Assembly (NCBI GenBank): GCA_003707065.3
Contig: PPXM03000009.1
Coordinates: forward strand, 62,001 to 126,000
Direction: 5' to 3'
Origin: Trigonopsis variabilis
Lineage: Eukaryota > Ascomycota > Trigonopsidomycetes > Trigonopsidales > Trigonopsidaceae
DNA: 64,000 nt
Of this stretch, positions 18,632 through 42,973 are shown in pieces. The notes under the pieces are model-generated. The model saw only the letters and a program-made list of their open reading frames with translations, searched no databases and was not told the origin of the DNA. Position 1 is the stretch's first letter, and each line of letters starts with the position of its first letter. Position numbers and translations under genes: made by a program.

Positions 18632-19339
18632 ATGTCTCTACTTGACTTGTCTCTCAATACCTCTTCTGCCTCTGTCGAGTCCCTTTGTGAAGATCTCTTT
18701 GAAAGTGAAATAGACCAATTGGAGAAAGACGGCATCCAGTTGAAAGTGCTTCGATACTCTGAGGAATCTGAAGACAGCTCCGATGACGACTATGTTTCTG
18801 CCCTCGAACCATCTGACGATGAGGATGAATATTACATGGCAGAGGATGATGGTACCGCACCTGACGATGAGGACAAATATTATATGGCAGAGGATGATGG
18901 TACCGCACCTGACGATGAGGACAAATATTATATGGCAGATGATGAGGGCACCGCACCTGACAATGAAGATCAAGATAATAATACTGATCTAGACCTCCCT
19001 GAGGTTACACTACCTCTTCCTCTTCGCCTTGCGCCTTGCCAAGATTATCTAGGCCTTAAGGATATCGCCTTCGCCCATGCAAAAGATGCCGCCAATGGAG
19101 TCTCCAAGATGTTTGGAGAGATTAATAGCCCTTTTGATGAATGCAATTGCATCAATATGCTTTTGTCCAGAAGCATCTTTGCACATCGCATGAGAAATCA
19201 GTCAAAGAGCCCCGACTATCGCAACTCCTTTGATTATTACACGCATTACTGCAAACTGTATGGTGGTCCAGGTTACCATCGAGCGACTTTGAGAGACAAA
19301 GTCTGCAGTCTCTTTCATCGAATGACTGGTCATGCCTGA
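18632..19339 (+). CDS. Acidic tandem-repeat protein of unknown function (235 aa)
   Basis: I do not recognise this protein. It has no signal peptide or membrane span. Residues 1-60 are Ser/Glu-rich. Residues about 62-109 are three near-identical 16-residue units (DDEDKYYMAEDDGTAP type), encoded by a 48-bp DNA repeat. The C-terminal half (about 125-235) is not repetitive. It is mixed charged and aromatic, with Cys residues (DECNCINMLL, VCSLFHRM), and looks folded. The gene has a TATA box, no intron, and converges on the HST2 gene. Possible roles such as a nuclear or chaperone-like acidic protein are guesses. It may be lineage-restricted. Confidence 0.7.
   Translation: MSLLDLSLNTSSASVESLCEDLFESEIDQLEKDGIQLKVLRYSEESEDSSDDDYVSALEPSDDEDEYYMAEDDGTAPDDEDKYYMAEDDGTAPDDEDKYYMADDEGTAPDNEDQDNNTDLDLPEVTLPLPLRLAPCQDYLGLKDIAFAHAKDAANGVSKMFGEINSPFDECNCINMLLSRSIFAHRMRNQSKSPDYRNSFDYYTHYCKLYGGPGYHRATLRDKVCSLFHRMTGHA
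18815..18958 (+). repeat. Three 48-bp tandem repeats inside the acidic protein
   Basis: The units are 18815-18862, 18863-18910 and 18911-18958, in frame, encoding 16 residues each. Copies 2 and 3 are closest at the start and copies 1 and 2 at the end, consistent with recent in-frame expansion by slippage or unequal exchange. Confidence 0.9.
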
Positions 19340-19472: not shown

Positions 19473-20734
<1,262 letters not shown>

Positions 20735-20931: not shown

Positions 20932-22178
20932 TTAGAGCTCATCGTGAAAAGGGCACTTTGGTACCGGATGAACACCATTAGCGGCTTGACGTTTAACCAT
21001 TGAGGTGAGAATTTCATAGACAACTTGAGAAGCAGCCAAGGCAGTAATCTCTGCATGATCATAGGCCGGACTGACTTCTACTACATCTGCACCCACAATA
21101 TTCAGCGACTCGATTCCTCGTAAGATGCGAATGACCTCTCTGCTAGTCCATCCTCCTACTTCGGGGGTGCCGGTTCCAGGAGCAATACCAGGGTCCAAGA
21201 CATCGATATCGAGAGAGAGATAAACAGGCTTGTCGCCCATTTTTTCCAAGATGGCCTTAATGATACCCGAAGTACCAATGTCATCAATGTCCTCTGTCGC
21301 AATTCGCAGGAATCCTTGCTCGTCATCATTTTCATAATCGCCGTAGTCGTTACCGCTTAGGCGAGTCCGCAATCCAGCATGAACACTCGTGCCATTGGCA
21401 ATAAGACCTTCGTTTGCTGCCAACCAGAACATGGTACCGTGGGTGATCTTTGTCGTGTCAGACTCCCACGGACAAGGATACTTGTCCCCAGCCCAAGTGT
21501 CCAAATGGGCATCAAAATGGAGAACAGAAATCGGTTCCTTGTATGCTTTATATAATGCTCGTAGGGTCGGCAAGGCAATTGTGTGGTCTCCTCCAAGAGC
21601 AATGATCTTTGGTGGCTTGGACGGATCTGAAAAAGACTTTCTCGAGAGTAGCTCATCATAGGCTTCAGTAATCTGTTCAATTGCCAAGGCTGAATCAAAT
21701 GGAGTGACGGGAATATCTGTGCAATCCAAGATCTTCGCCCATGACTGATATGGGTTGATTCCTGCCCGTTGATTGAATCCTCTGAAGGAAGTTTGTCTAC
21801 CGCTTGCAGCTCTAATAGCTCTCGGTCCAAATCGTGCTCCAGGACGATACGATACCGCAGTATCAAAAGGAATGCCGAGAATTCCAACGTCAAATAGCTC
21901 CGAATCATCAGTTAAACACTTCTTGGCAGGCAAGTGCCCAAATGTCGCTATTCCAGAGAAACCCCACTAACATTAGCCCATTCAATCTCTATACTCACCT
22001 CAAATTCCCATTTTGACAGGTCCTTTTGCTTCTAAATTGAGTCAGTCGGCAATCCTAGAAACTCAGGTCATGAAATGACTAGCTGAGAGTATCTTATATG
22101 AGCTGTACATACCTTAGCGGAGACGCCATGAGCCAATGAAGACCCAAGCAGGCCCACAAAGACTAGAATTGCTTTCAT
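20932..22178 (-). CDS. Agmatinase-type ureohydrolase with signal peptide and C-terminal HDEL
   Basis: The ureohydrolase family splits guanidino compounds (agmatine, arginine or similar) to urea using two Mn ions. There are three exons: 22178-22113, 22031-21999 and 21966-20932, with introns of 81 and 32 nt. The protein has 377 residues. Exon 1 encodes a clear signal peptide ([18 protein letters not shown]). Metal motifs are intact: [18 protein letters not shown] and [10 protein letters not shown] followed by [11 protein letters not shown]. The N-terminal block [18 protein letters not shown] is typical of fungal agmatinase-like secreted proteins. The last four residues are HDEL, the fungal ER-retrieval signal, preceded by KCPF. 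A luminal ER enzyme is therefore predicted, which I do not know as described for this family. Its exact substrate cannot be read from sequence, and guanidinobutyrase or another guanidine is possible. Confidence 0.9.
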
Positions 22179-23135
22179 ATGTAGAATCATCGAGACACTC
22201 TCTTATCAGCTTGGCCTGAAGTTTATCGGCCTGGGGCCGTTACAAGCGACAACGGCGGCATGTCCGAAATCATCAGCCGCGTTTACTCTATAGAGTAGGT
22301 CAATTGGTACGGTAATAGATTTTTTATTCCGAGAATATCATGCTGGTGAACTTCGGGTCAATGCTCGACAAGGAACATGTATATGTTGCAAGTTGCATGT
22401 CGCTTCTGTCCTCCCTCTACTGCTTATTAAAGGTCGGCTAGATGACCTTCAAGGTACACAGTAATCTATCTGTATTATCATTACGAATCAGCTTTCATTG
22501 TTCTGATTTCTTTACGAGCACTTTGGGGAAATCTATCTGAATGAGCAAGTATTGTTCATCGCATGTAACGATATTTTCTGTCAGTGTAGCATAAGTAAGC
22601 TTTCCATGTATGGGTAAAGTATAAGACAGAGAGGGCAATGCTCATCAATTTTCTCTGGTTAATATTCATCTTGTAAAATATATCATGTCTTCTGTATCTT
22701 GTGGAACTTATCTGCTTGCTGAGGCCGTCACTAGTCTGTGAGGCTGGGATCCGCGTAAACCTTATGGTCTCGAGACCAATTAAAAGTGAATAAATGGAGA
22801 CCCTATTATCACATTTGACTCTTGTATCCTATTGGATTCGGCTAATAGTATGAAATGAGAATCGTTATTTATGAAAAGATAATACGAAAGCTGATCATGT
22901 AATAACATTTTAATTTCATGGCGCCCAACTTCTTCAGTCATGACAAAGAATAAAACTGATCTGTAAAAATAGAAAAGCTATATATAGTAATGTCAAAAGA
23001 AAGTTTCAGATCGGCTACATTCATGTCGATCATTAAGTCAAGAAAAACTGCTCACTGACCAATTTACCCTGGAATAAAAATCCACAATCCTTTAATGCAA
23101 AATATTTGGTACAAGGTCCATGGAATCCTGTTTTG
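22179..23135. other. AT-rich intergenic region between divergent ureohydrolase and CAF40 genes
   Basis: No ORF or RNA gene is supported. A TATATATA-like element (about 22980-22988) lies about 150 bp before the CAF40 ATG. Confidence 0.6.
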
Positions 23136-39600: not shown

Positions 39601-40695
39601 GCATCGCAATGGGGCTTCATATTCCTGAATGGTTTGGTTTATTACGTTTTATTCAGTTTAAACAGTCATAGGGGCCGCTGTGAATGGCACTGAGACAAGA
39701 GAGACAAGGGCAACAGCTTGTAGAATAGACCTATTCACTGTTGCCGGATCCCATGAGTCTGTCGGTCTCAATAGTCTTCCGTACGTTGGCTTCAATGAGG
39801 TATTTTTAATACCCGTCATTAGACGCTTTTCGCAGCATATCTCCGTTTACTGTGTTTCCCCTCCAATCGAAGACTTGAAAGTATCTATACGTGCTGATCC
39901 ATGGAAAGCCAAAGAGATCGATTAATATCTCACCGCGCAGATACTTGTGCATGATCAGTCTTGACAGCCCCTAGAAGGTGTCGAAACGTCTCCACATTAA
40001 TACAAACGACGGGCCAAGTGGCAGAAGGCCTTAAGAAGTTTATTGATTACACCTAATTGAAGAAACTTGCATGTAAACAAGGTGACTTTGATAGTTGTCG
40101 TACAGCATGCCACCCCTTTAGGTGGATGGTTTGGCCCACGTGGAACCACCTCTGCTGATGACAACGCGTATGTAACAATAAACAAATGGACAGAAACAAA
40201 GCGTATCGCGATTGATTGAGCGGTGGATATCTGATCTGTTTAGGCAATCTAAGATGTCCGGGGAAAAATAAAGTTATAATGCCCGATGTCTTAGAACCTT
40301 CTCACTAAGCTTTTCTTGTTACATCCGTCAGGCGATTTCCAGGGACGGCTTGTTTTCACATGTTTACATAAGCGGGTATGTCCGGGTCTTTGGTATTCTT
40401 GGGCATCGGGGTCATAAGAGTTTAGAATGAATGTCTTGAGAAAATGATTTGTCAAAGAAAGTAACAAATGGTCGAAAAGGTCAGTCATCGAAGGTGAGGA
40501 TTGCCTATTTGGGTCATATATGGCGCTAAGGTGCGCCAGAACGGAATGCTAATGGTAACCACGGCCTAAAACGGACTAGCGACCAAAGGCCCCGCCACGC
40601 CACTTATATTTAGCGGCTCCGAGGCCAATTGGACCAGTCGCGGAGCAAAAAAACTATATATACCACTCCAAGCCGGGTTCATTCCACCATCAAAC
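36693..40695. other. Gene-poor 4-kb region
   Basis: About 4 kb between VPS26 (-) and the first wall-protein gene (+) shows no gene I can support. ORFs are all under 100 codons, overlap on both strands, and have no recognisable motif. No tRNA, terminal repeats or transposon protein remnants were seen. The right end holds the wall-protein promoter, with CCAAT-like GGCCAATTGG at 40623-40632 and a TATA box. Confidence 0.6.
40655..40662 (+). promoter_or_regulatory. TATA element of first wall-protein gene
   Basis: TATATATA lies 34 bp before the ATG at 40696, consistent with a strongly or inducibly expressed wall gene. Confidence 0.55.
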
Positions 40696-41376
40696 ATGAA
40701 GTTCACAGCCTCCGTTCTTGCTCTCATTTCTGCCGTCAGTGCTGTCCAGTTCTACGTTGAGTCTTCCGACTCTTCGATCAATGGAGATGGTTTGGGTGAT
40801 CCTCATGAGGGTGCCGGTATCAACTACATCTTCCTTGGTACCGGAGGATCCGTCGATCTGACCTACAATGCCACTTCAGAAACCTTGACTGCTCCTTTTG
40901 GTGACGAATTGATCCAAACCCTCCAGGTCTTTGCCAGCCCCGGCGTTCTTGCTCTCAGCGTCACCGGCCCCAACGGTGACAAATTCACGATTGAGGACTC
41001 CTATTTGGCCCTCAACGGATCTACCAGCTTCTGGGCTTGCAAGAACATTAACGATCCCTACTCCTATTCTACCCAGCAATATGCCCTTGTCTTCGGCGAG
41101 TCTTCGCCTGCTGACGGGTGCATTTCCCTCAAGCTCAAGGAGGGTGGTTCAAGCAACTCTACCACTACTACTGCTCCTAGCAACTCTACCAGCACTGCTG
41201 CTCCTGGTAAGACCTCTACCCTTACCTCGCTCGAGACTTTCACCATCACCTCTTGCTCTGGCGGCTGCACTGCTACCGGAACCAAGACCGCTGCCCCCAC
41301 TTTCACTGGTGCTGGTGCCGTGAACCAACTCAGCTGGGCTGGTGTTGGTGTTGCTTTGGGTGCTTTGCTTCTTTAA
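40696..41376 (+). CDS. GPI-anchored cell-wall protein, paralogue 1 (Cwp1/PhiA-like)
   Basis: A predicted secreted wall mannoprotein, 226 residues, no intron. The signal peptide is MKFTASVLALISAVSA/VQ. The folded domain includes HEGAGINYIFLG, FTIEDSYLALNGS and FWACKNINDPYSYSTQQYAL, and closes with DGCISLKL. The order of these blocks resembles ascomycete Cwp1/PhiA-type wall proteins, where the Cys pair may bridge. A Ser/Thr-rich stalk (about 155-200) with NST sites suits O- and N-mannosylation. The C-terminal hydrophobic tail SWAGVGVALGALLL after a Gly/Ala/Asn-rich stretch is a GPI-attachment signal. It is a tandem paralogue of the next gene, 950 bp downstream on the same strand. The function beyond the wall is unknown. 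Confidence 0.8.
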   Translation: MKFTASVLALISAVSAVQFYVESSDSSINGDGLGDPHEGAGINYIFLGTGGSVDLTYNATSETLTAPFGDELIQTLQVFASPGVLALSVTGPNGDKFTIEDSYLALNGSTSFWACKNINDPYSYSTQQYALVFGESSPADGCISLKLKEGGSSNSTTTTAPSNSTSTAAPGKTSTLTSLETFTITSCSGGCTATGTKTAAPTFTGAGAVNQLSWAGVGVALGALLL

Positions 41377-42328
41377 CTTATGTATTTTATTAATTAAAAG
41401 TAATGTCATGTTAGTCCAGTATATTCTGAATATACCTTTGCGGCACTCAAGTTATGGAGCCGCGTTGCGCTATGGCGTAAACGGTTTGGCTAAACCATAA
41501 GTGGAAAAGAATGTAGCATGAAAGGGCAGAACCTGCTACGTCACTTTAGTTGGTACTTTCATCAGATAAACGTAACGCCGACTATGTCTGCTTTGTTAAT
41601 ACTACATAATTCCACCACGACTAGTCCACGTTATTATTTAGAGCACAATGCTTTAGAGCTGACTGACAAGACCATGAAGTGCTGCTGTGGATAAGGAGTG
41701 CTCGAGGCAGTCTAAAAGAGGAAAGTCGAACCACTTTCTTTACGAGATATTCGTTCACTCCCGCGGAACTTCTTCAACCCGTAAACGTGTGGAGACGGCA
41801 AGTGCTCGGGTATTAAAGCGTAAAAACGTTTGATTAATAATGAAAAGTGCAGGGCAGCAGGGGAATAATTCCCATAGTCGTATATTGTTACGGTGGATAC
41901 CGAATCAAGCCGGCAACCAGTTATAAGTTTGGCCAATTTGGTTGGACCGCCTGATTTGAATATGAAGCAATGACCATATATGGCAATTGGGCCATAATTG
42001 GCGACAACAAGCATTAAGTCGTTGCATTCATTCTACTTAAAAGATGGTGGGAGAAAAAGAGACGTTGTCATATGGGCAATTCTGATGTACATGGGTCGTT
42101 TACATCTTGGGAATAGCCTTTAACTCTTTTGACAGCATTGGAATTCGGGTGAGGGACAAGTTCCAAAGAGAGTCATAGCATGTCGTTAGGCCCGATGTGC
42201 GGCTCAGGTACCAAACTTAGGATTTGCACTAAGCCGTTCTCGGTGGGTACAATAGATAGATCACAAGGCAAAGCGAATTATAAAAGGACGTGCAATTCCA
42301 CACCATCTTCATTGTTTTTGATTAAATA
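41377..42328. other. Intergenic spacer between the two wall-protein paralogues
   Basis: It contains the promoter of paralogue 2 (TATAAAA at 42279-42285). A 100-codon minus-strand ORF at 42014-41712 has no recognisable features and is probably chance. Confidence 0.6.
42279..42285 (+). promoter_or_regulatory. TATA element of second wall-protein gene
   Basis: TATAAAA lies 44 bp before the ATG at 42329. Confidence 0.5.
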
Positions 42329-42973
42329 ATGCTTGCTCTCTTCTATATTTGTCTACTTCCCTTTACCTTGGCCACTCAATTCTGGGTCGAGTCGTCTGAT
42401 TCCTTTTTATCTGGCCTAGGTATCGCCTCAACCCATGAAGGCGCCGGCATAAATTATTTTTTCCTGGGTAAGGATGCAGAAGTCCTCACGTACAATGAGA
42501 CTTATGATAATTTCTACATTTACGCGGGTGTTCCCATGGTCATGTCCCTTAGTTATTGGGCATCTCCCTATGATAACATTTTGAGCATGTTCTTGCCTAG
42601 TTCCGACGATACCGACAAGTTCACCGTTAACAATGGCTACTTGGCCCTTAACGGCTCGGTGGATGTCTTCTGGGCCTGCAAGAACATCAACGATCCTTAC
42701 GACTACTCTGAGACCAGGTACGCGGTTCTGGCCTCTTCGTCTGCTCCAAATGACGACTGTGTTTCCATCAAGCTGAGCACGGAAAAGACCGAGTCTTCTG
42801 TTCCTGAATCTTCCTCCCCATCCAGTGCAGCCATTACTTCTTCTTCACCAACAGCAAGCTCGTCGGCTGCTGCCTCTAGTACCTCCGAGTCCGTGTTCAC
42901 CGGCGGTGCAGTTGCTAACCGCTCTTCTCTTTTACTTCTGGCCGTGACTTTCATCGCCTGCTTCTTTGTATAA
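42329..42973 (+). CDS. GPI-anchored cell-wall protein, paralogue 2 (Cwp1/PhiA-like)
   Basis: 214 residues, no intron, a diverged tandem duplicate of the preceding gene. Shared blocks are FWVESSDS, HEGAGINYFFLG, DKFTVNNGYLALNGS, FWACKNINDPYDYSETRYA and DCVSIKL. The signal peptide is MLALFYICLLPFTLA/TQ. The Ser-rich stalk (about 155-190) is shorter and more Ser-biased than in paralogue 1. The C-terminal tail SSLLLLAVTFIACFFV is a GPI signal. Between the shared blocks the sequence has drifted, with an insertion around LSYWASPYDNILSMF. The duplication is therefore not very recent, and the two may have different expression or roles. Confidence 0.8.
   Translation: MLALFYICLLPFTLATQFWVESSDSFLSGLGIASTHEGAGINYFFLGKDAEVLTYNETYDNFYIYAGVPMVMSLSYWASPYDNILSMFLPSSDDTDKFTVNNGYLALNGSVDVFWACKNINDPYDYSETRYAVLASSSAPNDDCVSIKLSTEKTESSVPESSSPSSAAITSSSPTASSSAAASSTSESVFTGGAVANRSSLLLLAVTFIACFFV

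Follow-up and report, generated by a model that had tools for sequence, protein, structure and literature searches.

A three-exon gene on the minus strand of a 64,000-nucleotide stretch of Trigonopsis variabilis DNA (hereafter, the window) runs from an ATG at 22178 to a stop at 20932 and encodes a ureohydrolase precursor of 377 residues. The product is probably a soluble, agmatinase-type ureohydrolase of the endoplasmic reticulum (ER) lumen, directed there by a signal peptide encoded in exon 1 and held by HDEL retrieval, where it would hydrolyze agmatine or a close guanidino compound. The sequence carries both targeting signals and an intact set of metal ligands, and a structural model has the fold of the family together with a C-terminal tail that is predicted to be exposed.

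An earlier note on this DNA had assigned the gene to 20932-22178, which is exactly the distance from ATG to stop on the minus strand. Exon 1 (22113-22178) encodes 22 residues that make up the predicted signal peptide; an in-frame Met codon lies upstream at 22190 and, if used, would prepend MILH. Intron 1 (22032-22112, 81 nt, GTATGT...TTTAG) has a possible alternative acceptor 3 nt downstream, the use of which would cost the protein one Lys. Between this intron and a second one of 32 nt sits a 33-nt mini-exon (exon 2, 21999-22031) that contributes 11 residues in frame and was absent from the earlier description. Exon 3 (20932-21966) encodes 344 residues, comprising the complete arginase/agmatinase domain and a C-terminal tail that ends in KCPFHDEL before the stop. 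All of these features lie on the minus strand, and retention of either intron 1 or intron 2 gives rise to a stop. A gene model that skips the mini-exon keeps the frame, leaves both signals unchanged, and may be a valid alternative. We also considered a 51-nt version of intron 2 with its acceptor at 21948, which was discarded because the frame shifts into stops.

At 32 nt, intron 2 (21967-21998, GTGAGT...GCTAATGTTAG) is unusually short. A neighboring gene of the Sir2 family (Pfam SIR2, window positions 19473-20720, minus strand) appears to contain introns of 35, 38, and 40 nt, the second with GC-AG borders, which are very short for a fungus; the Sir2-like reading becomes continuous when the sequence is joined across them. 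The introns implied in this neighbor suggest that tiny introns, including the 32-nt intron 2, appear to be normal in this genome.

The leader encoded by exon 1 opens with a lysine n-region followed by a hydrophobic core, for which the best 10-residue Kyte-Doolittle mean is 2.81. Signal-peptide cleavage calls for small residues at positions -3 and -1, and two candidate sites fit this rule, one after residue 16 and the other after residue 21. Hydropathy and the -3,-1 rule together predict an N-terminal signal peptide, as the earlier note had read exon 1. Since no 19-residue hydropathy window that starts after residue 16 exceeds 1.22, a further membrane span is unlikely, and a soluble mature protein is to be expected. 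Of the 377 residues, the next Met to follow Met1 is at position 212, beyond four of the six metal ligands, so that a downstream start cannot yield a working cytosolic enzyme, and this route to a cytosolic form is excluded for the present transcript. A different first exon may encode a cytosolic protein.

Residues 26-320 of exon 3 match the Pfam Arginase family (PF00491) with 303 bits. Among the NCBIfam models, which serve bacterial and archaeal annotation, exon 3 passes the TIGR01230 agmatinase equivalog (190 bits, cut-off 174.3) and misses the PRK02190 agmatinase subfamily (NF002564; 281 bits, cut-off 302), a shortfall to be read as a subfamily miss that does not exclude the equivalog. Scores fall below the cut-off for the arginase model (87.3 against 227.6 bits) and for the formimidoylglutamase model (107.5 against 229.15 bits). 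The top sequence matches in the PDB are an agmatinase, a guanidinobutyrase, two more agmatinase entries, proclavaminate amidino hydrolase, and guanidinopropionase. The enzyme is, by these comparisons, probably an agmatinase.

The six residues that we take to be the metal ligands (H; DxHxD; DxD) are all present, at H161, D185, H187, D189, D286, and D288 of the precursor (H128, D152, H154, D156, D253, and D255 in exon-3 numbering). They are invariant in all 30 rows of an alignment of the query with 29 relatives picked from 115 viral and top-ranking genome loci, which bears out the earlier impression that the metal ligands look intact. The AlphaFold2 model of exon 3 has a mean pLDDT of 84.1 and a pTM of 0.88; in a fold comparison it comes closest to proclavaminate amidino hydrolase, guanidinopropionase, agmatinase, and guanidinobutyrase. 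In sequence and in fold, the PDB entries for guanidinobutyrase, guanidinopropionase, and proclavaminate amidino hydrolase match about as well as the agmatinases do. With several specificities this close, and with the PRK02190 cut-off missed, agmatine is no more than the most likely substrate, and guanidinobutyrate and others remain candidates. The loop after DAHLDTW is longer in the fungal protein than in the 29 aligned relatives. Active-site loops are held to account for specificity in the ureohydrolase family in the accessible part of PMC10833137.

At the other end of the protein, HDEL occupies the final four codons (20935-20946, minus strand), directly before the stop at 20932-20934, just as had been claimed. 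The last helix of the exon-3 model ends at residue 329, and residues 330-344, a 15-residue tail (20935-20979, minus strand) that ends in HDEL, form a low-confidence coil with pLDDT of 64 for residues 331-340 and 52 for residues 341-344. Among the 60 PDB matches listed, the best aligned stretch ends at query residue 332 of 344 at the latest. The tail is therefore modeled outside the last helix, and the HDEL is predicted to be flexible and exposed. A signal peptide, a C-terminal [HK]DEL, the lack of a further predicted span, and a tail exposed in the model together predict a soluble ER-lumen resident of the HDEL class.

Neither signal was seen in the prokaryotic and viral relatives. These comprised 115 loci, 35 of them viral and the remainder the best 80 of 590 genome loci, gathered with an alignment query; scans of viral and genome contigs with the single protein gave 2 and 49 pattern matches, respectively, none of them confirmed as relatives. 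No open reading frame ended in DEL among the 113 of 115 relatives whose stop lay within the fetched DNA, a count that represents fewer independent cases because some IMG/VR loci resemble copies of each other. Similarly, none of the 71 relatives that qualified for the leader check (an alignment beginning at residue 3, with a Met no more than 60 residues upstream) had a hydropathy peak of at least 2.2, the maximum being 1.51. The comparison shows the two signals to be additions to a bare domain; relatives that are prokaryotic or viral are not informative on the conservation of the signals in fungi. We note that agmatinase-like genes occur on 35 putative viral contigs (IMG/VR) with 26-37% identity to the query, three of these contigs being longer than 300 kb. 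They may be viral polyamine genes or may reflect host contamination.

Upstream of the agmatinase ATG, GATAAG motifs are found at 22207 and 22712 (minus strand), 29 and 534 bases away, which we take as a possible link to nitrogen regulation. The two are among 8 matches to the looser pattern HGATAR in the 822 upstream bases, and as a bare pattern count the observation is weak. Two UPRE-like patterns have no match in the same 822 bases, and CCAAT, labeled as ERSE, has three, the pattern being too short to mean anything. Elsewhere, the gene content of the window, for example Anp1 and DUF7907, points to a fungal host, probably an ascomycete. Two neighboring, similar-looking plus-strand open reading frames, 40570-41376 and 42326-42973, have signal-like leaders, are rich in Ser and Thr, and end in hydrophobic C-termini that by eye resemble GPI-anchor signals; against the Pfam DUF7907 cut-off of 27, the second passes at 34.6 and the first falls below at 22.1. 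At 18813-18966 (plus strand), a 48-nt unit is repeated 3.2 times with 93% matches inside an open reading frame that codes for an acidic repeat and matches no Pfam family at E 0.001. Scans of the whole window for tRNA genes and Rfam families found none.

The sequence is best read as that of an ER-lumen ureohydrolase, the central claim of the earlier note, given two signals in separate exons and neither of them among the relatives examined, which were prokaryotic or viral; the placement itself is not wholly new. The exon-1 signal peptide would lead to translocation of the ureohydrolase into the ER, where the protein would fold around a di-manganese site. A receptor of the Erd2 type would read the flexible C-terminal tail and keep the enzyme in the ER lumen, or return it there, and agmatine or a close guanidino compound would be converted to urea and an amine in that compartment. 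Within this scheme, we infer ER residence, the use of manganese, agmatine as the substrate, and a role in the use of external agmatine or in putrescine supply.

The earlier note had also supposed that ER placement of such an enzyme was undescribed. This no longer holds as stated, since an agmatinase with HDEL or KDEL, FGSG_05446, was reported as ER-enriched in 2017 (PMC5347122); what stands is that the accessible part of that report does not discuss it. In that study of Fusarium graminearum, four of 21 proteins enriched in sorted ER carried HDEL or KDEL, namely, two protein disulfide isomerases, BiP, and FGSG_05446, and agmatine and agmatinase are otherwise unmentioned in the accessible main text (PMC5347122). 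The same gene identifier shows a 29.4-fold induction by agmatine in Fusarium asiaticum, where agmatine raised putrescine from 20.3 to 39.8 nmol/g and increased GABA as well, according to the available part of PMC3624000, and it appears in an arginine-metabolism table in that of PMC4960244. FGSG_05446 (PMC5347122) was the sole case that we found in the literature on agmatinase together with HDEL, KDEL, or ER retention; searches for an agmatinase with a signal peptide and HDEL, for guanidinobutyrase in the endoplasmic reticulum, and for a fungal arginase with HDEL gave no match, and the accessible part of PMC12526404 holds nothing on localization. In Candida albicans, the agmatinase Agt1 and the guanidinobutyrase Gbu1 are predicted to be secreted, and an agt1 single mutant grows on agmatine and an agt1 gbu1 double mutant cannot, as described in the available text of PMC7439472. 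An HDEL/KDEL agmatinase enriched in an ER fraction is thus already known, which makes the present case a real one and not a wholly new one.

When a soluble protein with a signal peptide ends in a free HDEL, this is the standard retrieval signal. HDEL retention can be saturated, and the enzyme might instead be an agmatinase that is secreted, or that lies in the wall or vacuole, and scavenges agmatine from outside, with HDEL merely slowing its exit or with the enzyme moving on to a later compartment. The predicted secretion of the agmatinase and guanidinobutyrase of C. albicans fits such a scavenger, and initial extracellular breakdown has been suggested there as a possibility (PMC7439472, available part). 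We nonetheless consider secretion unlikely, given the retrieval signal itself, the tail that the model predicts to be exposed, and the ER enrichment of the HDEL/KDEL agmatinase in F. graminearum (PMC5347122). HDEL could also be the chance C-terminus of a secreted enzyme. Among the matches listed, most relatives have short and variable C-terminal tails, which indicates that a tail can drift, but of 5,644 stops in the six reading frames of the window only that of the present gene is preceded by HDEL, and none is preceded by KDEL. From the amino acid composition of 13 long open reading frames, [HK]DEL is expected at one given C-terminus with a chance of 3.7e-5, or about 0.02 times among an assumed 500 signal-peptide proteins. 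These figures agree with the earlier argument that two signals in separate exons make coincidence less likely and, with a second fungal agmatinase that ends in HDEL or KDEL (FGSG_05446, PMC5347122), they render a chance origin very improbable.

It is likewise conceivable that the protein resides in the ER with a main role other than hydrolysis, for example, a structural or actin-linked one. Neurospora crassa AGM-1, a candidate counterpart, affects F-actin dynamics and is essential, as described in the accessible part of PMC7439472. All six metal ligands are nevertheless kept in the T. variabilis protein, which argues for selection on catalysis, and we hold a mainly nonhydrolytic role to be very improbable.

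Should the enzyme be active in the compartment to which its signals direct it, one step in the metabolism of polyamines and guanidines would proceed inside the ER of some fungi. One might go further and propose for the ascomycetes an old and conserved breakdown of agmatine in the ER lumen by an HDEL-held manganese agmatinase, with putrescine and urea made in the ER and with agmatine import and polyamine/urea export implied; we offer this extension tentatively and regard it as rather doubtful. In the accessible literature, comparable fungal enzymes are discussed as secreted scavengers (PMC7439472), and FGSG_05446 appears only as an entry in a list (PMC5347122). With a second case now recognized blind from sequence, the generality of the trait and the role of agmatine in the ER become worthwhile questions.

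BiP, protein disulfide isomerase, and similar soluble residents of the ER have a signal peptide and a C-terminal HDEL. The T. variabilis protein is like them in being soluble, as predicted, and in having both signals, and it differs from these folding factors as a small-molecule metabolic enzyme. With the bacterial agmatinase, guanidinobutyrase, guanidinopropionase, and proclavaminate amidino hydrolase (PDB 4dz4, 3nio, 3nip, 7lol, and 1gq6), it has a fold common to all; identity to 3nio and 4dz4 is 39-40% over the aligned segments and 34-36% in structure-based rows. Unlike the prokaryotic and viral relatives examined, the fungal protein has a strongly hydrophobic leader and HDEL, and its loop after DAHLDTW exceeds that of the 29 aligned relatives in length. 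Agt1 and Gbu1 of C. albicans are similar as ureohydrolases of agmatine use that are predicted to enter the secretory route; by their description they are set apart as predicted secreted enzymes for which an ER-retention signal goes unmentioned in the accessible part of PMC7439472. The closest counterpart by description is FGSG_05446 of F. graminearum, which is named an agmatinase, carries HDEL or KDEL, and is ER-enriched (PMC5347122, accessible part). Its ER location comes from proteomics, whereas that of the T. variabilis enzyme is predicted from sequence alone, and on our best reading the latter adds a second case to a type of enzyme that has hardly been noticed, the ER-lumenal agmatinase.
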